The translations under genes were made by a program, and so were the position numbers. 64,000 nt of DNA from Acheta domesticus. Lineage: Eukaryota > Arthropoda > Insecta > Orthoptera > Gryllidae. The notes beneath the pieces are model-generated. The model searched no databases. It worked only from the letters and a program-made list of their open reading frames with translations, and was not told where the DNA came from. Below, in pieces: positions 1,233-55,189 of this stretch (the stretch's first letter is position 1; each line of letters opens with the position of its first letter). The stretch is taken from the NCBI GenBank assembly GCA_031308135.1, contig JAHLJT010003656.1, positions 52,181,665 through 52,245,664 on the forward strand. Direction: 5' to 3'.

Positions 1233-4020
1233 GCGCGGATCCAGAAAGTATAGTTGGGGAGGGAATTTACTCTCACTCGTTTTCTCTAGTATATAATATT
1301 ATATCATAAACATGACAAATAATTTATTATATAATATAATATTCTAGCAAAATATTAAAATGATTATTTAGTGAATTACTGTATGTTGTAAAAATTTATT
1401 TATTTATTAGCAAAATCATTGAATTTAAAGTTGCTAAATGATAGACAATTATAATATAATTTTCCTTCTATTATTCAGTTGTGAATGTTTACGATTTCAA
1501 TAAAAACACAACAAATTTACGTAAATATTTACATTTTATTTAATCATACAACATAAGAATATTACATGTTTTATTTTTAGACTTTCACAATACTATTCTA
1601 TGGTTCGCCATTTTCGAAAATCGATCCACCACTTCTTCTGGCTTTAATATGATATCACGTGAATGTGTAATAACGCCAATCCAATTAATCTTTCCTGAAG
1701 CATTGTTTCTCGAAGCCAAGTTTTTAAACAGCGCCATGAGGAGAAAGACCGTTCAGAACTTGAGTTTGTGACTGGCAAAGTACTGAGAATCGGGAGAAAA
1801 TTTTGAATTATAGGATAAATATCTTTATCACATCTCTCAAGAGTTTCGAGAGCAGAATCTGGAAAGATTACAGTCACTTAAGCATTTTTGAAGTTCCCAG
1901 TTACTGCCAATGTGCAATTTCGCATTTCAGTTTTAAAATTTGCATGTCTTTGGCTCCTTCCAGTAAATTGCCAAATCTTTCAACGAGACAATTGATAACT
2001 TCTCTGATTTGTTCGGAATTCAAGCTAATCACATTTTCAGGAAACAGTAAAATTAAGTGGAAAGCATCTAGTACATCCTGAGAGAATCGTGATTTTAAAT
2101 CATGTATACCATTATCCAAAAGAGGAATATATGCAGAAATTCTGTAGAAATTCTGGCAATCTTCTACTTCTGGATTAGTGCGATTTGTTTGTCGACCGCA
2201 AGTTCGGAGCTTTTTCATATCAATATTTAATTTTTCTGTCATTTTCTTCGCATTGTTAAATATTTCACAAAAGTGTTCCTCTACTTCTTGTCGAGCGTTC
2301 TCCAGGGTTACAATCAATGATTGCACAATTTTCACTGCTTTTGCCAGGTCTATAGCTTTCTTTTGCAATAGGACGCTGAGTGGAAGCGTAAGCGATAATA
2401 TATCACTAAGGCCAAAAAGCCCTAAAATAAATTCACACGTGCACAATGCATGAACATGAACTGATGCCTTACCAGCCGTTTCCTTATTCTTCCACTGACT
2501 AATTTTTGTAAGAGCCTCAATAATCTCAGGTAAACTTACCGTAAATTGGAGAACTGCATCATGTCTTTCTACCCACCGTGTATCACAGAGCTGAACAAGA
2601 TTTTACCAAGGAATTGAACCAAAGCAGTGTTTTGTTTAGGTCTGGATGTTTTGAAAAAACATGTCACTTCCCTTATAACGTTGCAGACGTTGTCAATCAT
2701 AGATACTTTTGATGATTTTGATATGTTGTTATTGAGTTTATGCGAGAATCATGGTGTCATGACAGCATTCACAGCATCTTTTTGTATTTCTTTTACTGCT
2801 CCATGTTCTCCAAGCATGACAGGACACCCATCAGTACCTATAGCAACACAATTTTTGAAACTGAGATTTATTTTGTTAATTTCCTTCAAAACTATTTGCC
2901 CTATTGATGCCCCAGTCTACGAAATTTCTTCCGTCGTATTCCCGCTACTGGTCTTGTTAGTCTGCATATTGTTGCGTGGTATGAACTCTTCAGTTTCAGC
3001 TTCATCTTCCTCACTTTCGTCTTCGTCATTTAAATTCTTCGTTAATTCTCCGAAAGCATCAATAAATGCTACAAAATATTCTCTTATGCAAGGTTTATCA
3101 GTGTTCGTGTAATCAACATATCGAAGAATAACACTAATCTGAGCTTTGCCTGATATATCCGGAGATTCATCAAACATAGTTGCGTAATATCTTGAATCAT
3201 TTACACGTTTTATTGTTTTCTCTAGAATGTCTATTCTGCAACACTCAATTAGCTTATCTTGGACAGATTTGCTGATATAAGTTGCTCTTGATGATGATGT
3301 TTTCAGATGTTGTTCAAGGTTTAAGTCTCCAGCGTGAACCCTAAATCTAAGCAGAGCTCTAAAATTGCCTTCATTCTTCGTTGGAACGGTTTCACTTAAT
3401 AGCGGTACATCATCTCTGTCCACGTAGTGGTATATTTAGCTAGCCAACAAAATGATAGTTTTGATAATAGGAATAAGTCGTTTCCTGTTTTCTTGTGCCT
3501 GAGATAGACGATTTTCATCGAGGATATTTCTCACTTCCAAATTTGGGTTACGGTAGGTTTTAAGAAATTTTCCCGGAAATTACTGCGTCCTTGTGATAGG
3601 AATAAGAGCAATGGTTTTCTAAATGGCTCTTTACTCCAGTCACATTTTTAAAATTAGTTAACGGTCTTGTGACTAGAGCTCCCTATGGCACATTTTTTGG
3701 ATAGCCACCCTCATTGCGTGTTGTATACCATGGGCAATACTTACAGTATAAACCCTTTTTAACATCTGATAGAACGAGCCAATCTCGATATGTTTGAAAA
3801 TGCTTGTTGCTAACATAGTTTTTTACTATTTTTCCTGAAACAATTCTCGTCGATGTAGGAAAACTGTAGTCTTTTGGCGGAGTCCAAGGATTTTCCAGCA
3901 AAATTGCTTTAATTCGATCGTCAATATTTTCACCAATGTAATGCCCCACATCATTGGAAATCACTGCCAATGTATTATCCTGTATATTGTCTGGAATATC
4001 CTGAAGTCGACGGATGGATT
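1230..4020 (-). mobile_element. Degenerate hAT DNA transposon (Tip100/DUF4371-type)
   Basis: The left edge reads CAGGCGCGGATCCAG immediately after the (AT)n run, which is a characteristic hAT terminus (CAGG.GCGGATCCAG class). The interior encodes, right to left, an N-terminal zinc-finger region, a DUF4371-like region and a C-terminal hAT dimerisation region. A matching right terminus was not found near 4020-4110, so the 5' end may be truncated or interrupted by the AT-rich patch at about 4075-4100. No 8-bp target duplication could be assigned. Confidence 0.75.
1644..3970 (-). pseudogene. hAT transposase, DUF4371/ZMYM1-like, broken
   Basis: Four open segments on the - strand are in the order expected of this transposase family. 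3970-3683 has ENPWTPPKDY followed by a CKYCPWY cysteine motif (TTF-type zinc finger). 3423-2917 contains RYYATMFDESPDISGKAQ, the DUF4371 motif with the acidic D-E residues of the RNase-H-like core. 2446-1901 is the helical middle region. 1877-1644 contains LPVTNSSSERSFSSWRCLKT and LALLHIH, the hAT C-terminal dimerisation signature. The segments lie in different frames and are separated by stops, so no full-length protein can be made. The family is related to host genes annotated as zinc-finger MYM-type 1-like. The broken frames and adjacent terminus argue for a dead transposon and not a domesticated gene. Confidence 0.85.
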
Positions 4021-4029
4021 TAAAATGGA

Positions 4030-5240
4030 TGAAATGGTGGCTAGGGTCACTGCCTGAGTTATCTTCTGTTGCACTAATATATATTATTATATTTATATAT
4101 AGACATTTTTACTTTATTTCTTACTACAGTACTTCATAATATAGAGTAATTGTAAGTAGTAAATGCTGCAGTCGAAAAGGGTCGAAAAACGCGTTTCTAT
4201 CCTAATTTATCTGTATTTTAAACTAATTTGATTAGAGTGTAAAATGGGCTTGAATTGACAGTTTTTCGCCTCTGTAACTGCTATTGAAATATTCCTGGCG
4301 ATGCAAACCCAACATGCATGAAACATCAAGCGAAGTTTTTTGCATGCTGAAGATATTACTACACAGTTTCATTATACAGTCCAGAGAAATGTAATGTCGA
4401 GACGAACACCACTTACTAAAACATAAATATTGTAATATATTTTATATTCTTGAATATGAGAAGGTAATGATGGCAAACTCTTATCTCGAGATTTTGAGGT
4501 ACTGTTTTTGAGATCAATTGAATGTTCATCGATTTTTTGATGAACCTTCAAAATAAGTTATTAATGAAACGTCTTTCATTTTGTTTTAGTCAAACTATAT
4601 ATATAAACTTTTATGAACAACGACTACAGAGGCATTTTATATTTAATCTCATGTTCATTAGTAGTTTTATGTCTTCAGTCATTAACTGGAGAGATTTAAA
4701 ATGTATTTTTGATGCAGGGGAGCACATATCTTTTTACTTTTTCGTCTTAGAAAGAACTTCGTAAGAAGAGAATGTTATATGGTTCGCCGGATAACGGTGA
4801 TTATTTTCTTCTTCTTCTTCTAGTATCGTTTTGCGTAGTGTACAACTGTTTGATTTTGTCAGATTCGAATTTTAAGGTAATTCACCTTCCGATCAACAGG
4901 TCACAAATCACACGGTCAACAATTTGTAATGCCACTGTTGTGAGTGCTACACAGAATCATCGAAGGAGATTCATGGGCGGAATTAACAGAGTTCGTGCCA
5001 CTTCCGTCGTAATTACATTTATGCAGTTTAACCATCAGCTGGCGCGCCATCGGCACATCGCATGAGCAGGTGCGTGCAGCATTCAATGCTGCCTTCGAAC
5101 TAGGGGTGCTAGAACGGCACGTACATTTTCGGATTATTTGTAACGACTCCTCAATATTATACTACGAGTACTACAAGAAACTGCAAAAAGTGTTTCCAAT
5201 ACATCAGCAATTCTTTTGCCGCGCCAAAAGTTGAGCACAG
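4030..5240. other. Non-coding, nothing recognised
   Basis: AT-rich DNA. It has short open frames without family resemblance and a (TTC)n-like patch near 4808-4821. No element termini were identified. Confidence 0.45.
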
Positions 5241-5824: not shown

Positions 5825-6535
5825 CTAGAGATGTGCTGAAGGCTTCAATTCTGTATGTCTGCGTGTATTATTGGGAGCGGCGCGTGCGCATCGAAGGCGA
5901 TCGACACCCCAAGCACGTGGGCGACGCCGCATGCGCGCAATTGGCACGTGCGGAGGGGGCGGGGGACTCCTCTGTGCACCTCTCAGCCTCACGGCCCTTG
6001 CACAGCCCCGCTCCCTCAGCATGCCCGCTCGCTCAGCACCTCTCCTCCTCCTCTCCTCCTCGCCCGCTCTCCTCACGCTCCCCCGCTCCCGCTCCCCCTC
6101 CACCCTCCCCGTCTCACGCTTGCTATCTCCCACTCTCCCTCTCTCGCTCGCCCTCTCCCACTCGCCCTCTCCCACTCTCCCTCTCTCGCTCGCCCTCTCC
6201 CACTCGCCCTCTCTCGCTCGCCCTCTCCCACTCGCCCTCTCTCGCTCGCCCTCTCCCACTCGCCCTCTCTTACTCGCCCTCTCCCACTCGTCCTCTCTCG
6301 CTCGCCCTCTTCCACTCGCCCTCTCCCCGCTCACCCTCTCCCACTCGCCCTCTCTCGCTCGCCCTCTCCCACTCGCCCTCTCTCACTCGCCGTCTCCCAC
6401 TCGTCCTCTCTCGCTCGCCCTCTCCCACTCGCCCTCTCTCGCTCGCCCTCTCCCACTCGTCCTCTCTCGTTCGCCCTCTCCCACTCGCCCTCTCTCGCTC
6501 GCCCTCTCCCATTCGCCCTCTCTCGCTCGTCGTCT
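5825..6535. repeat. 14/28-bp CT-rich minisatellite
   Basis: From about 6110 to 6535 the + strand alternates CTCTCTCGCTCGCC and CTCTCCCACTCGCC, giving a 14-bp unit organised as a 28-bp dimer, with roughly 30 monomers and point variants. Because the 28-bp dimer is not a multiple of three, all forward frames stay open and give S/P/L/R-rich (forward) or E/R/G-rich (reverse) pseudo-proteins. These are artefacts of the repeat. The preceding 5870-6110 stretch is GC-rich and irregular. Confidence 0.93.
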
Positions 6536-21969: not shown

Positions 21970-23235
21970 TACATCCGATCATATAGATAGATTTATTTAA
22001 ACTGCAAATGGGTATAACCCGGTGGCAGCTAATTACAAAAACATAAAAATACACAGTCTCTCAGTAACATAGAACACTAATACAAATAATAATAATAAGG
22101 TAATATAACTAGCAAATTATATACTAATTATAGTAATAATAATAATGGTAAAATAATTATAATAATATAAAAATTGACTGATTCATTAAACATTAAACTA
22201 CATTAACAGAGAAAAGAAAAGAAAAAGAAAGAAAGAAAACCTTCTATACTCTAACTCCGCACTGAATGTTTATACAATCAGGATCGCACTGCACTTCACT
22301 TCACTAAGATCTGAAAACATTTCCTTCTTTATTTCTCTACTATACACTGCACGACACCTCACTTCACAATAGAACACTTATGCATCGCTATATAACCCAC
22401 TATTCTCCCTCATTTACTTAATAATACCCTAAATTAATTTCCTAAACTGTTGAACACTTTGAGGAAAGGGTTCAAAGGTTTTTGCAGGCAATCTATTCCA
22501 TTCCGTAATCGTTCGATTTGTAAAAGAAAATTTCCCGACATCCGTTCTCTGCTGTCTTAAATTTATTTTGCGCCTCTGATCCACTTTACTGATGTATGTA
22601 GGAATTCATAGCCGCCGATTAATTTCTTTCCAAGCTGGATGACCATTATAAGCGTTATACAAGGCGCAGAGTCTTGCTACTGATCGCCTATTTTTGCGTG
22701 AATCCCACCCTGCCATTTTCTTGTCCCTGAAAGTAAATTTAGCTCCCCTATGCTGAATCCTTTCCAAGTGTTTACACTGCATAATTTTGTGCGGATCCCA
22801 ACAAATTGTTCCATATTCCATCATCGGACGAACAAGAGATAAATAAGCAATTTCCCTCGTTCAGTACTCTTTTTTAGGATGCGCATTACAAAGTGAAGAG
22901 ATCTCCAGGCTTTCCCTACAACAAAATCTACGTGTTTTTTTCAACTTAATTTACTATCGAAATGAATTCCTAGGTACTTGCACGAGGAAACTTTCGTAAT
23001 AATGTCATTATTTAAACGGTAATTTGTTTCACTGTAATTATGACCCCTGCCAAAAGTGATAGATTTACTTTTAGAGCTATTTATGGACATTCCATTATTT
23101 TCCGTCCAGTAATATAACGTATCAAGATCCCGTTGCAGAATTTCTTCATCTCTTTTCGAATTAATACTACGATTTATTATGCAATCATCTGCAAATAGCC
23201 GAACATTTGAGGTTAATTGCGCCGGCAGATCATTG
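21970..23235 (-). mobile_element. Non-LTR retrotransposon (LINE), 5'-truncated
   Basis: The - strand encodes the 3' half of a reverse transcriptase. LPAQLTSNVRLFADDCIINR carries the catalytic FADD box at about 23190. This is followed by MSINSSKSKSITFGRG and SCKYLGIHFD, then MMEYGTICWDPH and LERIQHRGAKF, then the C-terminal TITEWNRLPAKTFEPFPQSV at about 22500. A few stops and frameshifts show it is dead. Truncation just upstream of the FADD box is the usual 5'-truncation of LINE copies. The remaining 21970-22440 is probable 3' untranslated sequence, AT-rich. The clade is Jockey/CR1-like, judged by the motifs and not by phylogeny. Confidence 0.88.
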
Positions 23236-23765
23236 ACGAAAGCTATAAATAGAACAAATATCTCAACGCTTAGTAGAATAGTAGTACGCCATTATGGACT
23301 AGCTTCCACACTCGTCCTTTTCCAACTTTGGCTATTCTGTCAGTCACAATATACTGCTCAAGAAACAATATGGCGAAGAGTTAAGTCCCGCGTGTTTAAA
23401 CCCTGCCACTTAGGTATGTATCCTGCTTCTATACAGTTTACATTGTTCATTTGTATCTCATTTATTCCTGTGTTTATGTAATATCAATTCATATGTTAAT
23501 TACATTTGGTCACCAATTTTCTTCCCTGTAGAGCCAAGGCCACTAAATACGAGATAAATTATTCCCGAAACCCGTGTATGTCTGTTAATTATTAATATTA
23601 AATTGTATTGTAATATACTTTGTTGTTGATAACTCCTCGATACTGAATCAGCTGAATAGAAATTTGTTTGCTATACTAAGCCCAACAAGCTGGACAGTAT
23701 TCCAGTGAGTGCGATCGCAGAGGACCTGCAAGCGCGCGTTTCTGGCTTCCCAAAGCGCTTTAATC

Positions 23766-39989: not shown

Positions 39990-41640
39990 CGACATTTTCT
40001 GTACATACCCCCACCACCGGAGTTGAATCTCCTTCCCGTAGACTTCTTGCGCCTATCCAGCGTGGGAATGGCCGGTTGTCTCAGCGGCGGGTGAGGGAGA
40101 GATGATGATAACATAAGTTCAAATGTGAACCGCGTCTCGAGAGGAGAAAACAGGCAAATGTTTAATAATTCTCAGTTCTAGGAATCGTCCTCTTCTGTAT
40201 TATTTCAGTAGTATAGATGCGTTTTGCGGCTCTCACACTCAACCAGTCTTTTTAAATGAGGTCTCTTTCTTAGAGAATTTCACGCAGACGTGTCGAATTG
40301 CACTTAAACTTTAATAAATTGAAGTATTTTTTGCAGAAACGCATCGAAATAATCATATCAAATGCAACCCGCAACATTCAGGCACCGTTGTTGAAATTTA
40401 TATAGTTGTATAAGGAGGAAACGATGAGTTCTAGAGCTTTAAAATATGGAACATTGAGACCAAATGCCTTAAAGGAACGTTCCTCACACCATAACCTACA
40501 GGATGAGATCTTACTGGACACTAATGCAGTTTTCCTGGTTCAACACTTTTCGATTCTACCCCATCTGTTCAAAGACGTTCAGGATCTGCAGCTGTATGGG
40601 AAATTAAACTTATTAATTTATATTCTTAGCGATTGTATTACGCGAATGTACCTCTCTATTTGGCAATAAAGTTAAAAATAGTTTTGTATTTATATTGACA
40701 AAGGTGTATTGTACTGTTAAAATACGTTCAATTAATACAATTACAAGGAGACATGCAGAAGAAGGGAAAGAGGATAAGAGGGTATTGAAATACATTTTGA
40801 GTTTAAGATGCGAGAGTTCTCGTATGGGTCCGCAAGTAACAATTTCATTCTCGGTGGCCTTATTTTCTCTTTATTGCTTTGCCTACCTGAGATCGGAGTA
40901 AATAATGTTTCGTGACTTCTCTTTTTCTTTCTCTCCCTTATAATCGTATTCCATCACCCCCTTTCACTGTTATTATCGTCTGGTGTCACGGTCATTATGC
41001 ATCTGGTGTTCTCTGCTCTGTCTTCTGAAGACATTTGAGCTGATGAGAGTAAAAGTGGAATAAGTCAAATTTTGGAACATTTGAGTTAGGTGCACTGGTA
41101 GGTGATTTCAACATCACGGGCATGTTCCATCACGGGCCAAAATGGTGTGGTTCAAACTTGAATATTTCTTCGCTAAAGGCCAGCACAGTGCAGTTGTGGC
41201 CAGCTCGTCGCTCACACCGTTGCATGCAATTGTAGAGTAAGACACAGATGGGACGAAACAACAGCTTCCAGAAAACAATAGCTCCCCTTCTTTCCACTAT
41301 TTTGCGATATTAACCTATTATAATATACACTGTAGAAAATATCAAAACATTGGTATTTTCAAAGAGAAGGTTCTGACAAATTGCTTCAGCCTATGTTGCA
41401 GTCGGGCGTGAAAGGAATTCGAAGATGTCAAAGGAAGCCTTTGACGGAGAAACACATTATAGGAATGGTGATAATACGTAAATTGTTACAAATGAAGCAA
41501 GCTTTAACAAGTTTTCTGAACGTAAATCTATTTATTTTAAGAAATAAAATTGGATAAATATATAATTACACTCTTTTCTTTGAATATGTACGTACAAAAC
41601 ATAATGCCAGTTAAAATGTTATATTTAAAAAAATACCTTT
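39990..41640. other. Non-coding, one hAT-related fragment
   Basis: 40190-40330 (TATTATTTCAGTAGTATA, GAGGTCTCTTTCTTAGAGAA, GAATTGCA) matches 25430-25570 inside the hAT at 25.2-27.0 kb, so it is a fragment of a related element. Otherwise AT-rich DNA without recognised features. Confidence 0.5.
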
Positions 41641-41689
41641 TATTTGAGGTGAACCTTAACTTTTGTATGCTCAATTTTCTTCTCGAGAT

Positions 41690-41862
41690 ATGGAGGAACT
41701 TGAGTTACGGAAGAGTTCGATTGTGTAGGTATTATAGATTAGAAGGTATTCGAGATATGGAGGTATTTGAGATACGAAGATATACGAGATACGGAGGTGT
41801 TGGAGATACGGAAGTATTCGAGATATAGCGGTATTCGAGATACGGGGGTATCCGAGATAAGG
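41690..41862. repeat. 17-bp minisatellite just past the painless stop codon
   Basis: About ten units of GGTATTCGAGATACGGA type (17 bp), clearest from 41755 to 41862. The array lies 40-210 bp downstream of the painless stop, so it would fall in the 3' untranslated region of the transcript. Confidence 0.92.
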
Positions 41863-41900: not shown

Positions 41901-42092
41901 TCAGCAGGAGCTGTCGCCGGCGGTGGATGCCGTGCGGCCGACGCCGGAGTCCATGCGGGAGTCGGGGCCGGGCGTGACGGGCTCCCAGTCTTCGGGCGCC
42001 TCGCTGAACACGCTGTAGAGCGGCCCCCGCGCCTCCGCCCGCGCCCCCGGCCCGCAGCGCGCCTCCAGCCCGCTCAGCACCTGCAGCACCTC
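41901..42092 (-). CDS. pain: painless TRPA channel, terminal exon
   Basis: The acceptor TGTGCGCAG is followed by GAG in phase 0, matching the phase-0 donor of the exon at 45189-45417. 63 codons run from EVLQVLSGLEARC to TAGDSSC and end with TGA at 41903-41901. The joined reading LEDVDARVQ-EVLQVLSGLEAR is a short amphipathic/coiled-coil segment like the C-terminal end of painless channels. The acidic, Ser/Pro-rich tail (SVFSEAPEDWEPVTPGPDS) is cytoplasmic. The first 20 bases of this exon and its acceptor are copied about ten more times immediately upstream, so the true acceptor in use is uncertain. The innermost copy was chosen because it yields the conserved junction. Confidence 0.75.
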   Translation of the reverse strand, partial: EVLQVLSGLEARCGPGARAEARGPLYSVFSEAPEDWEPVTPGPDSRMDSGVGRTASTAGDSSC

Positions 42093-42510
42093 CTGCGCAC
42101 ACGCACACACACGCTCAGCACCTCCTGCGCACACACACGCGCGCTCAGCACATGCAGCACCTCCGGCGCACAAATACGCTCAGCACCCGCAGCACCTCCT
42201 GCGCACACGCGCACACACACACGCTCAGCACCCGCTGTACCTCCTGCGCACACACGCTCAGCACCTACAGCACCTGCGCACAGGCACACACACACGCGCT
42301 CATCACCTGCAGCACCTCCTGCGCGCACACACGCTCAGCACCTGCAGCACCTTCTGCGCACACGCGCACACACACTCAGCACCTGCAGCACTTCCTGCGC
42401 ACATGCACACACACACATGCGCCCAGCAACCGCAGCACCTCCTGCATACACGCACACACACACATGCGCTTAGCACCTGCAGCACCTCCTGCGCGCGCAC
42501 ACACGCGCTC
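42072..42510 (-). repeat. Tandem array of 3' splice sites (about 11 copies)
   Basis: On the - strand each unit of roughly 30-47 bp is a GT/TG-rich tract, then TGCGCAG, then GAGGTGCTGCAGGTGCTGAG. This is the acceptor of the terminal painless exon plus its first ~20 coding bases. Units differ by (GT)n length and point changes. In some the internal CTGCAGGTG is shortened. Most keep the CAG|GAGGT junction, but one reads CCGGAGGT and one GAAGGT. The innermost copy is the real exon edge at 42093/42092. Confidence 0.88.
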
Positions 42511-42520
42511 GGGATTAACA

Positions 42521-43306
42521 CAGTGGCGTAGCGTGACTCACGCGTTTCGGGATGCTCAACAATAACGCGAACTGAAGCCATCATGATTCTTAATGTTCTC
42601 TAGAATCTATGTTATTGAAACAAATGGTACAATACTTCGACAGATTTATGTCAGGAGACTTCCTGAAAGCAAATTATGAAATGGCTTAGCTTTTGTTTTC
42701 ATGCGCGATTGGCAATGAGATCACTTGTGAATTTATAATTTCGAACCAAAATAAAATTTAATATATTTAAATAAGAATTCAACTTCTTAGATTTTGAATA
42801 AGAATGATTAGGCAAGCACTATTTCTGCTGTTGGTGCCTATGACCAAGCACAGAATCAAGAGTGAGAAAGAATAATATTTCTCTGACACCCTTGAGTGTG
42901 CTGCGCTCTCCTGCACAAACGAGCAACTTGCTCATAAGCCTTTTCTCAGCCATAAGCTAGCGTCTCGGGACTCGAGAATTGGGGGCAGAAGTGAACAGGG
43001 GAAGGGGGAACCTCACCGTCTGCGCATGCGTCGTTGCTCTTCGCAATTTACAAACTTCATTGGTCCAATCTTCTGCTCAGCAAACTAAGCTAGCAAGTAT
43101 TTTAGCATCCAAGCAATCAGTGGCCAGCTTTTAACAACGCGGCCGAATTCAATCACAGGAAATCACTTTAAAATTAATACAAAACGTGTTTCGCTCAAAG
43201 TGTTTCACTCACTTGGAAGATTATCAGTACAATATTTATGGTTCTTGATTAATATTTTACGTGGGGATACTCAGCATCATAGCGTCCCCTCGACGCTACG
43301 CCACTG
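42521..43306. mobile_element. Non-autonomous hAT, 786 bp, in the last painless intron
   Basis: Ends CAGTGGCGTAGCGTGA and GACGCTACGCCACTG, flanked by GATTAACA (42513-42520) and GGTTAACA (43307-43314), an 8-bp duplication with one mismatch. No transposase frame. It begins 10 bp beyond the acceptor array. Confidence 0.85.
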
Positions 43307-43309
43307 GGT

Positions 43310-44370
43310 TAACAACCTTTTTTGTAGAGACCACCGACGGTAAACAATAGCCATTAGGTGGAAACGTCATTCGGAATGTTGACGTGACCATCAGAACATT
43401 CAGTTACTTGTCCAACATTGTGTATATTGAGAGTACACACAGGTCGAGCCATTTCGTGAAGAAAAACATCCCCCCACCGCTCGTCTTCCGTTAGATTATA
43501 TTTCCGAAAAGCTCGTTTCTGTACACTAGTGTGATAGGCCAGAAAACACTGGCTTTATTTGAACAGAAAAAACATTATAAATACGACATAAATACCTGGC
43601 ATATAGAACGCTTATGGCCAAGGTTAGTTAGGGCGACAGGTAAACAAGATACGAGTATTATATTCACTTAGCAATCGCTGCGTCGCCGCCGTCTGTTGTA
43701 GCCCACGCACGATGCGGTCCTTTTTTCCGCAGAGAAACTGAATGGCATAATGACATCAGTAAGGTCCGTTGCCTTGTGCTCAGGGGGGTGACTTCTTCGA
43801 TGATGGCCTTTGGCCGACGATATTTTTCCAAGTTGCCCAGTGTTTGAATTTGTGGCACTGAGGAGGTACTTTTCCAGGACGGTGTATTTCCCACGTCCCC
43901 TACATCCGAGGTTCAGGTTCACTGCAACCGAACTTTCTTATGCTTATTTGTAATGGAAATGCAAAAGGACCAGTGAACTAAGTTCACTATAACCGAGGAT
44001 TCACTATATCCGACTTCGCCTAGTGGACTGTACCAGGAACAGGCTAGTATGTTTTATTTTTTACCCGAAATGACTCACCTGCAATGTAGATCGTACATTA
44101 TTATAATCGTAATTTATTGCGTAATTCAATGGCGAATTTTAGGGGGAGGGGCCACGGCAAAAAGGCCTACTATTTTTTGTTATCTTCCTAAACTTGGCAA
44201 AATTGATTGCAATGTTTATTTATATTTGAATTACGTAATTATTTAAACAATATTAAACACTATCATACGCTACAAAAACATACAATATAATCCCAAATAT
44301 GTGTATAATTTAACAAAAATCTTTGATTCCCCCCCCCATTCAATGCGCTCCTGATTGGCGCGAGCTCACC
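43310..44370 (-). other. Intron DNA with a Tigger/pogo relic at 43660-44029
   Basis: 43660-44029 matches the Tigger MITE at 58271-58859: the - strand shares TNSNTGQLxK, and the right end shares TTCACTATAACCGAGG and CACTATATCCGA, ending CTG-TA at 44029. Its left terminus is missing. The rest of the stretch is AT-rich with a run of C near 44331-44338. Confidence 0.65.
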
Positions 44371-45213
44371 AGCACGCAAGCGTCGACTTCCTCGAGCGCG
44401 AACCAGGCTTACCTGCACGCGCGCGTCGACGTCCTCGAGCGCGAACCGGGCTTACCTGCACGCGCGCGTCGACGTCCTCGAGTGCAAACCGGGCTTACCT
44501 GCACGCGCGCGTCGACGTCCTCGAGTGGCAAACCGGGCTTACCTGCACGCGCGCGTCGACGTCCTCGAGCGCGAACCGGGCTTACCTGCACGCGCGCGTC
44601 GACGTCCTCGAGGGCAAACCGGTCTTACCTGCACCGCGCGCGTCGACGTCCTCGAGGGCAAACCGGGCTTACCTGCACGCGCGCGTCGACGTCCTCGAGT
44701 GCAAACCGGGCTTACCTGCACGCGCGCGTCGACGTCCTCGAGCGCGAACCGGGCTTACCTGCACGCGCGCGTCGACGTCCTCGAGTGCAAACCGGGCTTA
44801 CCTGCACGCGCGCGTCGACGTCCTCGAGCGCGAACCGGGCTTACCTGCACGCGCGCGTCGACGTCCTCGAGTGCAAACCGGGCTTTCCTGCACGCGCGCG
44901 TCGACGTCCTCGAGGGCAAACCGGGCTTACCTGCACGCGCGCGTCGACGTCCTCGAGCGCGAACCGGGCTTACCTGCACGCGCGCGTCGACGTCCTCGAG
45001 GGCAAACCGGTCTTACCTGCACGCGCGCGTCGACGTCCTCGAGGGCAAACCGGGCTTACCTGCACGCGCGCGTCGACGTCCTCGAGTGCAAACCGGGCTT
45101 ACCTGCACGCGCGCGTCGACGTCCTCGAGCGCGAACCGGGCTTACCTGCACGCGCGCGTCGACGTCCTCGAGTGCAAACCGGGCTTACCTGCACGCGCGC
45201 GTCGACGTCCTCG
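44371..45213 (-). repeat. Tandem array of 5' splice sites (43-bp unit, about 20 copies)
   Basis: On the - strand each 43-bp unit is CTCGAGGACGTCGACGCGCG, CGTGCAG, then GTAAGCCCGGTTTGCA. It holds the last seven codons of the painless exon (LEDVDARVQ end), an intact CAG|GTAAG donor and the first intron bases. Nineteen near-identical copies plus one diverged distal copy (CTG|GTGAGC at 44371) were counted. Variants alternate CGCGAA, TGCAAA and GGCAAA in the intron part. One copy (near 44886) has GAAAG in place of GTAAG and has lost the donor. One copy near 44634 carries an extra C and another near 44526 an extra G. Since 43 is not a multiple of three, all + frames stay open and generate spurious proteins. 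Confidence 0.93.
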
Positions 45214-45417
45214 AGCGTGAGGGTGCGCGCGGCGGCGGCGCCGCGGCGGCTGATGATCTGCGTGGCGCGGTCCAGCGAGCGCTTGGAGAGGCAGCGGTGC
45301 TCGCCGCCGCTGTCGCCCACGCCCAGCGCCAGCTCGCCCGTGTGGTTGGGCCAGACGCGCGCCTCGCGGCCCTCCAGCGCCGCGCCCGGGAACAGCACGG
45401 CCCTGCGCACGCGCACG
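45189..45417 (-). CDS. pain: painless TRPA channel, C-terminal cytoplasmic exon
   Basis: The acceptor GGAAATGACCAG is followed by C completing the split AG|C codon from the preceding exon. 76 codons then run to CAG and the donor GTAAGC in phase 0. The translation (VRVRRAVLFPGAALEGREAR, WPNHTGELALGVGD, CLSKRSLDRATQIISRRG, TLTLEDVDARVQ) corresponds to the cytoplasmic tail after the sixth helix of painless, with the basic helix ending in a heptad-like segment. The last 27 bases plus the donor are the first unit of the 43-bp array. Using donor 2 or 3 (at 45146 or 45103) would extend the exon by 43 or 86 bases and shift the frame of the last exon. In the continued frame the third donor itself forms a TAA (45101-45099). 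Confidence 0.85.
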
Positions 45418-45429
45418 CTGGTCATTTCC

Positions 45430-45655
45430 AGGGAAGAAGAACTGGCCGGGTGGATGTTACAAGAAAGGACGAAATGTATTCTTTTTGAAGTAAGAAGAAC
45501 TGTTCGCGTGATGTTACAAGAAAGGGCGAAATGTATTCTTTTTGAAGTAAGAACTGTCCGCGTGATGTTACAAGAAAGGACGAAATGTATTCTTTTTGAA
45601 GTAAGAAAAAGTGTCCGGGTGTATGTTACAAGAAAGGACAAAATTTCTTCTTTTT
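45430..45655. repeat. 56-bp tandem repeat beside the acceptor of the C-terminal exon
   Basis: Four units of about 56 bp contain GATGTTACAAGAAAGGACGA and ATGTATTCTTTTTGAAGTAA, starting about 13 bp from the exon acceptor. On the transcript strand each unit supplies a pyrimidine-rich TTCTTACTTC stretch. Confidence 0.9.
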
Positions 45656-48477: not shown

Positions 48478-49728
48478 CTGCGCAGGCAGGGCCGCAGGCA
48501 GGCGGGCAGGGGCAGGCCGCCTGCGTTGTGCATGTGGACGAGGATGCGCTCGCTGCGCTCCACGACGCCCACGCGGCTGCGCAGCTGCAGGCGCTGCGCC
48601 TCGGCCTCGATGCGCGCCGTGTCGCTCACCGCCAGCCCCCGTCAGCAGGTTCAGCACCACCACCGTCACCAGCAGCACGAACAGCACGAACAGCGCCGTG
48701 CTCAGCAGCGGGCTGTGCGCGCTGCGCGGCAGCGACTCCACGTCCACCTCGCCGATCATCATGACGAGCGCGCTCACCAGCGACATGTACCACGTCTCGA
48801 AGCCCGGCTGCTGCTTCTTCGCCTTCTCCTTCTCACCTCCCCCCGCCGCCGCCGCCGCCGCCTCCGAGTCGTGGCACAGCGCGAAGAAGCTCACGCTGAA
48901 CGCCACCAGGATCACCGAGTACGACAGCAGGGGCAGCAGGTAGTTGGTGATCACCACCTTGAGCATCTCGATGTACTTGGCGAACTGCGAGATGCGGCCG
49001 AGCAGTAACAGCCATTCCAAGCACGACAGCATGATGGTGAGCACGTTGATACGCCTCACGGCAATCGAAGTGACGGGGAGTAAGAGGGATAAAAGGCTGC
49101 ATGTTAACAGTGCCCAATCTAAATAATTCTCCCAACTTTTGACGTAGTTTCTGAAATCTAAAAGTATCTGACAAACTTCACGCAAGGCCAGGATCGTCCA
49201 AAAAACAAGGGTGGTAACGCAGACTGCAATAATTGCATTATAACGGTTTGAATTCTCACCGTTCCCGGTCACATCAACGGTCTGGTTTTGTATATTTCCA
49301 ACTGTCGTGTTTCCTACAGAGGTCATTGTGCCGGTCCCCAAAACGATATACACATTTAAAGAGATCGTGAAAAGGACGTACAGAATAAAATTCGCGTAAG
49401 TAAGATATTTTAAGCGGTTCCACTTGAGTTGCAAAAACGTCAACGCAACCGGATGGTGCAAGAGAGCGCTCAGTTCGTTGTCCTTGCTCATCATGTTGAG
49501 GAAGTCCATCTCGCTCACCAGCTGCGCGCCGTCGGGGGCGTCGGCGGGGCGGAAGTGCACCGCGCCGTTCTCCAGCGCCGCGTTCATCGGCGCGTACCGC
49601 TTGTCGGCGGCGTCGCCCCGGCGGCGCGGCCCGGCGGCCAGCAGGCGGTAGTCCAGCACCAGCTCGTAGTCCTCGTCGAGGGCGTTGCGGCCGTTGGTGC
49701 GCACGCACTGGTCCAGCAGCGCCTCCAC
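48478..49728 (-). CDS. pain: painless TRPA channel, transmembrane and pore exon, with a 1-bp frameshift
   Basis: The acceptor GTTCTGTGCAG is followed by GTG in phase 0, and the donor is CTGCGCAG|GTACTC. The exon encodes the end of the ankyrin linker (VEALLDQCVRTNG), a pre-S1 region (FLQLKWNRLKYLTYANF, about 98-114) and six helices: S1 about 108-131, S2 163-183, S3 201-222, S4 227-246, S5 262-285, S6 341-363. The pore loop FETWYMSLVSALVMMIGEVD is at 310-329. This is a cation channel of nociceptive and thermosensory neurons. An Ala/Gly/Lys-rich insertion (288-306) precedes the pore. After NLLTG the frame breaks: a run of five C on the + strand (48636-48640) where four are needed. One base fewer would give the conserved S6 end, TRP-box-like LAVSDTARIEAEAQRLQLRS, and the correct phase (AG|C) to the next exon. 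It may be a sequencing or assembly indel. Confidence 0.93.
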
Positions 49729-52904: not shown

Positions 52905-54772
52905 CTGCGGCGCGCCGAAGGGCGGGCGGCCCAGCTTGTTGCGGCGCGCGGGGTCGGCGCCGGCGCGCAGCAGCAGCACCACCGTCTCCAGCCCTTGGTC
53001 GGCGCGCGCCGCGTAGTGCAGCGCCGCGTTGCCCTTGGCGTCGGCGCGGTCCACGTCCAGCGCGGCGTCCTCCAGCAGCGCGCGCAGCACGGGCGCGTGG
53101 CGGTGCAGCGCGGCCAGCACCAGCGGCGGCGACGGGTTGCCGCCGGGGCACGTGTCGTTGGGGCCGGCGCCCGCCGCCAGCAGCGCCCGCGTCGCGCGCG
53201 CCAGCCCGTAGCGCGCCGCGCGCTGCAGCAGCGTGAACGTCTTGTCGTTGGCGGCGCGCAGGTCGGGCGGGCGCGCCGCCGCGCGCAGCCGCGCCACGAA
53301 CTCGTCCTCGCGCAGCGCGTTCAGGCACTCGAACAGCTGCGCGGCGCGGTCGCGCTCCGCGGGCTGCGCGCGGCGCACCTGCACCTGCACTTCCCCGGGC
53401 GCGCGCAGCAGCGGCGCCAGCGCAGGGAACTGCTCCACCAGCGACGCCCGCAGAGGCTTCTCTTTGGCGTCCCAGCGCACGCGTTCCACGTCGACGTACG
53501 GGAAGTGGGTGGGGGAGGCCAGGAACGTCTTGATGATGCTCTTGTTGCCGTCCTCCACCGCCAGGAACAGGGCCGTGTGCCCCGCCTTGTTGGCGCGCGC
53601 CACGTCCAGCGCGGGGCGTGCGAGGAGCGTGGCGAGGCACTCGCGGCGCCCGGCCTCCCGCCGCTTGTCGTCGCTGATCCTGTCGACGGCGCAGTGCAGC
53701 GGCGTGTTGCCCGACTTGTCCTCGCAGTTGAGGTCCACGTCGAACTTGGAGTGGCGCAGGAGCGCCTCGAGCGCGCGGTGGTGACCCTTCTCGCACGCCA
53801 CGTGGATGGGGTACTTCTCGCTGAGCTTGCTGGGCACGTTGGGGTCGGCGCCGGCCTCGAGCAGCGCGCGCACGAAGTCGGCGCGGTCCTCGCGCTCGCA
53901 GGCCAGCTCGAGGCACGTGGCGTGCAGCGGGTAGCCGAAGGCGTGGTTGGCGTCGAGCGTCGGGTTGCCGTCGGCGTCCGTCTGCGCGAGCAGCGCGCGG
54001 AACAGCTCGAGGCGGCCGTCGCGCAGCGCCTCGGCCAGCGCCGCGTGCGGGTCGGCGCGCGCCTGCGCGTCCCGGCGCGCGGGCAGCTGCGCGCGCAGGC
54101 GCGGGAAGCGCAGCTCCACGTCCTCGCGCGCCGTGCGCCCGCGCGCGCGCGCCGCGTCCACGTCCAGCGCGCCGTGCGACAGGCGCAGCAGCCGCTCGGC
54201 CACGCGCTCGCGCGCCGCCGCCACGGCGTCCGCCTCCGCCCCCGCCCCCGCCACCGCCCCCGCGCGCCCCTTGACCGACTGGCGCTTGCCCGGCCCGCGC
54301 ACTAGCGCGTGGAACGCCGTGAAGCCGTTGCAGTCCGTCTTGTTGAGGTCCGCCACGCTCATCTTGGGCACGAGCAGCGCCACGCACTTCTCGTACTCGT
54401 CGACGCGGTCGGCGGTGAGGTGCATGCAAGCCAGGTGCAGCGCCGTCTGGCCCTTGCTGTTCTGCTGGAACACCTTGGTGCGCTTGTCCGCCAGCAGCAC
54501 GGCCAGCGCGTCGCTGTGGCCCTTCTGCGCCGCGTAGTGGATGGGCTCCGGGATCACGTGGTTGATGTTGGGCTTGACGTGCTGCAGGAGCAGCTGCACG
54601 AACTTGCTCCTGCCCGGCTTGCGGCACGCGATCTCCAGGCACGTGGCGTGGTAGGGCTTGGGGTAGCGGAAGCGCTTGTCCACGCGCCGGTCCCGCACCA
54701 GCTCCTCGAACGCCGGCAGGTCCCCGTCCAGCAGCGATTGCAGCAGCTGCTCCTGCAAGGCTTCGCGCTCCT
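52905..54772 (-). CDS. pain: painless TRPA channel, ankyrin-repeat exon
   Basis: A single 1868-bp exon. The acceptor CTTCTTCCTGTTCCAG precedes it, two bases complete a split codon, then 622 codons follow to the donor CAG|GTAACA in phase 0. No in-frame ATG exists before an upstream stop, so the start codon lies in an unseen upstream exon. The protein carries about ten ankyrin-type units (for example EPIHYAAQKGHSDALAVLL, GQTALHLACMH, YPIHVACEKGHHRALEALL, GNAALHYAAR). The order is tripartite: segments starting LLQSLLDGDLPAFEELV, LAEALRDGRLELFRALL and LFECLNALREDEFVARL head similar blocks, two of them continuing with HATCLE(I/L)AC. This cytoplasmic N-terminus precedes the channel exon in painless. 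Third positions are almost all G or C, in sharp contrast to the AT-rich introns. Confidence 0.93.
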
Positions 54773-54959: not shown

Positions 54960-55178
54960 AACTTGACTGCCTACAGACTGGACTGCCTACAGACTGGACT
55001 GCCTACAGACTGGACTGCCTACAGACTGGACTGCCTACAGACTGGACTGCCTACAGACTGGACTGCCCAAAGACTGGACTGCCCAAAGACTGGACTGCCC
55101 AAAGACTGGACTGCCCAAAGACTGGACTGCCCAAAGACTGGACTGCCCAAAGACTGGACTGCCCAAAGACTGGACTGC
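54960..55178. repeat. 16-bp minisatellite with a sharp unit switch
   Basis: About 13 units. The first half repeats ACTGGACTGCCTACAG and the second half ACTGGACTGCCCAAAG. The change is abrupt at about 55067, so each subtype expanded separately. It lies about 190 bp upstream of the ankyrin-exon acceptor, in the 5' intron of painless. Confidence 0.95.
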
Positions 55179-55189
55179 CGTATATAAGG

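Follow-up and report, generated by a model that had tools for sequence, protein, structure and literature searches.

Why does one intron carry twenty copies of its own 5′ splice junction and eleven of its own 3′ junction, and which of them would be used? The question is raised by a 64,000-nucleotide stretch of Acheta domesticus DNA (hereafter the window; GCA_031308135.1, contig JAHLJT010003656.1, positions 52,181,665 to 52,245,664), in which two tandem arrays sit at the last intron (intron 3) of a minus-strand gene that is, by its sequence, a predicted painless-like channel gene of the TRPA class. An earlier note on this DNA had described two independent minisatellites, each copying its own junction, and both the anatomy of the units and the lack of any cross-match between the arrays bear this out. 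We put at about two in three the probability that the minisatellites grew across the splice junctions and have been tolerated because the exon-proximal sites win.

The two junction arrays

The donor array (44364..45217, minus strand), delimited by repeat finding and unit alignment, consists of 20 head-to-tail minisatellite units, 43 bp long except for units 14 and 16 (44 bp); repeat finding describes it as 43 bp x 19.8 with 94% matches. Read from exon 3, the unit runs CTCGAGGACGTCGACGCGCGCGTGCAG/GTAAG (slash, splice junction), followed by an 11-nt linker, and this is repeated 20 times with small variations. Twenty-seven nucleotides of the unit match the end of exon 3, and the other ~16 nt are intron, comprising the donor and the linker of ~11 nt; unit 1 itself supplies the coding end of exon 3. 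In units 2-19 the exon-derived 27 nt are identical to those of unit 1, save for one inserted base in unit 14. The sequence CAG/GTAAG is found in 18 of the 20 units and GT is kept in 19: unit 8 (44888) reads CAG/GAAAG and has lost its donor, and the outermost unit 20 (44370) has diverged to CTG/GTGAGC. An AGGT core is present in 18 units, the remaining two having AGGA and TGGT.

Unit comparison reveals a higher-order repeat (44440..45215, minus strand), in which units 1-9 (44829-45215) recur as units 10-18 (44440-44828) with their variants in the same order. Units nine apart differ by a mean of 0.33 edits over nine pairs (three edits in total), and a value as low at any lag was obtained in 8 of 50,000 shuffles of unit order. 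Since the order of linker variants is shared by the two sets, the block of nine units was probably doubled en bloc. Within units 1-19 (the degenerate unit 20 being excluded), six of the eight inferred variation events fall in the 11-nt linker (P 0.005, post hoc); as the events were counted by eye and the split was chosen afterwards, this says little for constraint on the extra sites.

A recursive (ratchet) splice site is defined by a pyrimidine tract followed by AG/GTRAGT. The donor units read AG/GTAAGC, and the 17 nt before their AG, with a U fraction of 0.12 and a pyrimidine fraction of 0.47, form no such tract. The acceptor of exon 3 (45402) is as poor as the AG of the donor units; that of exon 1 has a U fraction of 0.47.

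The acceptor array (42071..42508, minus strand; repeat finding and unit alignment) possesses 11 junctions, 10 with CAG and one with CCG, in units of 30-47 nt. Each unit comprises ~21 nt from the start of exon 4, fewer in two units, and a TG/CG-rich tract which ends in GCAG, once in GCCG. The acceptor units are more diverged than the donor units; AG is kept in 10 of the 11, with CG at 42163. The earlier count of about 20 donors and 11 acceptors therefore stands for units (20 and 11) and not for intact GT and AG sites, which number 19 and 10.

At nine of the 11 acceptor positions (eight of the 10 with AG) the branch-like sequence GCTGAGC or a near variant, with a possible branch A, is found 15-29 nt upstream. 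The two positions lacking a branch-like A are 42394, which has GCTGGGC only, and 42488, which has none. The branch-like sequence belongs to the exon-derived portion of the unit; each duplication would therefore bring the next acceptor a branch-like site. Judged by these features, several acceptor units look self-contained.

Coding outcome and the host gene

All 20 x 11 = 220 donor/acceptor pairs, numbered from the exons outward, were joined in silico and translated. Frame is kept in 72 of the 220 modelled pairs, and the native C-terminus is reached by three, namely (1,1), (2,2) and (2,3). Pair (2,3) uses the dead CCG acceptor, so that, among the 190 pairs whose GT and AG are both intact, two keep the native end; the exact joint found in the protein of the cricket Gryllus longicercus is made by pair (1,1) only. 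The earlier note had envisaged some 200 ways of removing the intron, a number that means little for the protein when three pairs keep its native end, one of them by way of a dead CG acceptor. Donors 4-20, which account for 187 of the pairs, share a stop that follows residue 101 of the tail as modelled, within the donor array and before the last junction. When donor 1 is joined to the ten inner acceptor positions (nine with AG), the native end is lost and a stop is met in the last exon, 2-61 residues past the joint; an example of the resulting alternative tails is EVLQVLSVCARVRRRCCRC. On the strength of these translations, with three native ends and a single pair giving the exact joint, the models predict many splicing routes but essentially one route to the cricket-ortholog protein.

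Domain matches in the host gene are to ankyrin repeats at 52907-54770 and to an ion transport domain at 48650-49728 (PF12796, PF00023 and PF00520). Among the 25 matches listed (7,990 candidates scored), the closest protein is G. longicercus hypothetical protein P0001, at 68% over residues 600-1180, and those named painless have 25-31% identity. The annotation of the G. longicercus genome is described as the product of BRAKER3 with RNA-seq and protein evidence (PMC11213874). End-to-end alignment shows P0001 to span all four visible exons, including the joint at the last intron (...TLEDVDARVQ/EVL...), from which we infer the C-terminal exons to be genuinely coding.

All four exons are on the minus strand. 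The first visible exon (52905..54772; open reading frame (ORF) and domain match) contains the ankyrin repeats, and exon 2 (48478..49728; ORF, domain match and P0001 alignment) the transmembrane region. Exon 3 (45189..45402) is 214 nt long, with introns of ~3 kb on both sides; its start is set by the P0001 joint between exons 2 and 3 (WLR/RAVLFP), alternative in-frame starts being possible at 45417 and 45441. Exon 4 (41901..42092; ORF and P0001 alignment) carries the stop codon and the native C-terminus, ...TAGDSSC. At 48636-48640 in exon 2 there is one surplus G in the G run after LNLLTG, which shifts the frame relative to the G. longicercus protein and reflects either a genuine break or a mistake in the assembly. 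A 16-bp x 13.7 array (54961-55179; 98% matches) precedes the first visible exon by about 190 bp; partway along it the minus-strand unit switches from CTTTGGGCAGTCCAGT to CTGTAGGCAGTCCAGT.

A relaxation of constraint at the C-terminal tail had been offered as one possible cause of the amplification. It is not favoured, since exons 3 and 4 encode a tail that for much of its length, the joint included, aligns closely with the G. longicercus protein. A dead gene was also considered and rejected: the tail largely aligns closely with P0001, and the surplus G is the sole frame break seen.

Surrounding arrays and competing explanations

A third array (45434..45655, minus strand; repeat finding), 54 bp x 3.9, contains four copies of TGTAACAT, pyrimidine-rich stretches and three CAG. 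It stops 31 bp short of 45402, where exon 3 starts by the P0001 joint, would enter exon 3 if the start were at 45441, and may multiply the branch sites of intron 2. The fourth array (41683..41859, minus strand; repeat finding), 17 bp x 6.8, starts 42 bp beyond the stop codon and lies probably within the 3′ untranslated region, if the AATAAA read by eye at 41639-41644 is the poly(A) signal. Intron 3 also holds, just upstream of the acceptor array, a transposon-like insert (42515..43312, no strand assigned) that has TTAA at either end and terminal inverted repeats of 20 bp. The window has 27 merged tandem arrays of period at least 10. At 6055-6529 there is a long array built of 14/28/56-bp units, whose plus strand is rich in pyrimidines. 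From their translation we take the minus-strand open frames at 1901-4108 to resemble a hAT-type transposase, and the minus-strand open frame at 22941-23291 presumably resembles part of a reverse transcriptase (FADDCI).

At E<=0.01, a similarity search of the window matched each of the four arrays to its own region only (about six units stood in for the donor array), and a common origin of the arrays was rejected for want of any cross-match. Alternating purine-pyrimidine runs of at least 14 nt number 21 in the window; the acceptor array holds nine of them, the donor array none. Since all nine runs of the two arrays fall in one of them, a shared Z-DNA-type cause was likewise rejected, and for the shared replication property proposed in the earlier note no shared sequence cause was found. 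RNA folding of four stretches gave z-scores of 0.61 and 0.44 for the donor array and of 0.29 and -1.93 for the acceptor array; a special RNA structure as the cause is unsupported, three of the four stretches being not unusual and one acceptor stretch leaning that way.

The placement of the arrays was tested post hoc with 11 arrays (period at least 10, score at least 100), placed uniformly at random in this one window in 20,000 trials or moved by rotation (n = 1,279); both tests ignore a possible preference of minisatellites for GC-rich DNA. Both ends of intron 3 were covered in 47 of the 20,000 random placements and in 14 of the 1,279 rotations, and at least two of the seven junctions in 1,150 and 78, respectively. 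An array lies within 50 bp at four of the eight exon edges, a figure reached in 77 placements and 15 rotations (rotation mean 0.57). Under four other threshold settings, the rotations out of 1,279 were 67-100 for at least two junctions, 10-14 for both ends and 15-29 for the edges; at the strictest of the five settings three of the eight edges have an array, which 29 rotations reached. As the tests are post hoc, confined to one window and blind to GC preference, array placement at these junctions is to be called uncommon, and is no proof of a cause.

For the reading that we favour, that of minisatellites tolerated across splice junctions, we infer the following order of events, site usage and neutrality. 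Two independent tandem duplications would by chance have spanned the two splice sites of intron 3, one at either end, and both would have expanded into minisatellites through slippage and unequal exchange. The spliceosome would mostly join the exon-proximal donor to the exon-proximal acceptor, and the surplus units would leave with the intron, so that the gene survives. As part of the array, unit 1 (the end of the exon 3 coding sequence) may be turned over along with the other units, and selection on it could keep the exon-derived parts of all units uniform. The doubled block of nine units fits this course, because unequal exchange en bloc would leave such a pattern; also consistent with it are the restriction of the ortholog joint to pair (1,1), the many other tandem arrays in the window, the centring of donor variation on the linker, the anatomy and counts of the units, and RNA folding that is not unusual in three of the four stretches. 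Alternative sites within large flanking introns are reported to be chosen by closeness across the exon (PMC9225289), and this proximity rule, applied to a 214-nt exon between introns of ~3 kb, would favour donor 1. The rule applies less directly to the acceptors of a terminal exon, and here the argument is at its weakest. Three observations weigh against tolerated growth. With ten acceptor units that have AG, eight of them with a branch-like A, simple scanning gives no clear reason for an advantage of the proximal acceptor; one acceptor stretch has a more stable predicted fold than most of its shuffles (z -1.93, matched by 8 of 200); and the presence of arrays near four of eight exon edges (77/20,000) hints at a local cause over two chance events.

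It is unlikely, in our estimate, that the arrays are in use as a switch or rheostat for the channel tail, in which inner acceptors would give alternative tails on stable mRNA, donors 4-20 would lead to decay, and the number of units would determine channel dose and the choice of tail. Such a use would agree with the loss of the native end at all ten inner acceptor positions when donor 1 is used, the stop then lying in the last exon behind tails such as EVLQVLSVCARVRRRCCRC, as well as with the one stop in the donor array common to the 187 pairs of donors 4-20 and with the self-contained look of several acceptor units. The tails, however, result from frame alone, the loss of one donor and of one acceptor is tolerated, and the ortholog protein has the proximal joint only. 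Errors of assembly in the copy numbers, the nine-unit block or the single-base indels are improbable to a greater degree, in spite of the mere three edits that separate the two blocks in nine unit pairs, the single-base insertions in both 44-nt donor units and the surplus base in the G run of exon 2. At under 900 bp, each array would fit within a single long read, if long reads were used; moreover, the unit variants are recurrent base changes rather than random indels, and each array runs into its own exon.

The AGGT of 18 of the 20 donor units admits another mechanism, which we consider very unlikely: the unit end ...GCGCGCGTGCAG/GTAAG would act as acceptor as well as donor, and, nearly every unit ending in an identical AG/GTAAG, a transcript first spliced at an inner donor could be re-spliced from donor 1 to the AG of that unit, which would remove exactly the extra units and restore the message. 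The low U and pyrimidine fractions given above (0.12 and 0.47 over 17 nt) make this a poor 3′ splice site, but a weak site is not a full exclusion, as dual-specific sites are reported to score below single sites (PMC10809524). Fainter still are the prospects of an extended version, with the donor array as a self-erasing splice buffer that would allow any unit number and, together with self-contained acceptor units, let copy number at both ends tune channel dose and tail. We likewise give little credence to a shared local cause, whereby the 4-kb gene end would be prone to tandem duplication at exon edges and would have produced four unrelated arrays around exons 3 and 4. The four exon edges of eight with an array within 50 bp, against a rotation mean of 0.57 (15 of 1,279 rotations reach four), speak for it; against it, all four arrays lack matches beyond their own regions, two of the units are GC-rich and two AT-richer (consensus units, by eye), and the alternating runs of at least 14 nt lie in the acceptor array with none in the donor array.

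Precedents and meaning

The view that the arrangement matches no repeat class was too strong, as both boundary tandem repeats (PMC2812944) and AGGT arrays (PMC10809524) have been described. In human segmental duplications, 162 alignments are reported to carry variable tandem repeats at exon-intron boundaries, and inspection yielded 27 modifications of introns (De Grassi & Ciccarelli 2009, PMC2812944). The human repeats too are minisatellites at exon-intron boundaries, with a mean unit of 30 bp, and exon-intron structure can change through them; in both arrays of A. domesticus the repeat unit contains the junction, with an exon-like and an intron-like part. The human repeats average four, and that account as seen in part gives no case at both ends, whereas here 20 and 11 units occupy both ends of an intron in an insect. 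Tandem AGGT arrays usable as donor or acceptor are reported from UBC and from repeat genes such as VCX3A (PMC10809524), and share with the present case an AGGT in the tandem unit and many equivalent splice sites. The UBC units are described as coding ubiquitin monomers, whereas the unit here is 43 bp, not a multiple of three, mostly intron and predicted to be a weak acceptor. Nor does the intron lie inside one repeat whose unit divides its length, as in UBC, the acceptor being in a different and unrelated array.

Intron gain by tandem genomic duplication of an AGGT segment is reviewed as having in vivo support (PMC3443670). Here, as there, duplication of such a segment makes new splice sites; in contrast to that process as reviewed, the sites copied are those of an existing intron, and no sign of a new one was seen. 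Minisatellites of an earthworm lie within an intron, with no junction array in that case as described (PMC12783039). For the amplification of both ends of one intron, no precedent was found in one open-access library of papers, covered mostly by titles and abstracts. The present case follows the logic of the described boundary repeats, tandem AGGT arrays and intron gain, but in it both splice sites of an existing intron have been copied, each in an array unrelated to the other.

The multiplied junctions are probably a tolerated repeat accident, functional use of the extra sites being mostly unsupported. Artificial tandemly duplicated splice sites were reportedly used by Reed and Maniatis in 1986 for studying site choice. 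As in such constructs, and in the setting of the proximity rule (PMC9225289), the competing sites are near-identical and differ mainly in position; unlike the artificial constructs, the present case is natural and sets 19 donors against 10 acceptors at once. It is thus a natural counterpart of the duplicated-splice-site experiment, with 19 near-identical donors, for which position is the main variable, and 10 similar acceptors, and the locus could show how strong the exon-proximal preference is and how the right AG is found among ten. It also presents a coding exon whose last 27-29 bases lie inside a minisatellite, and which may evolve in concert with the array.

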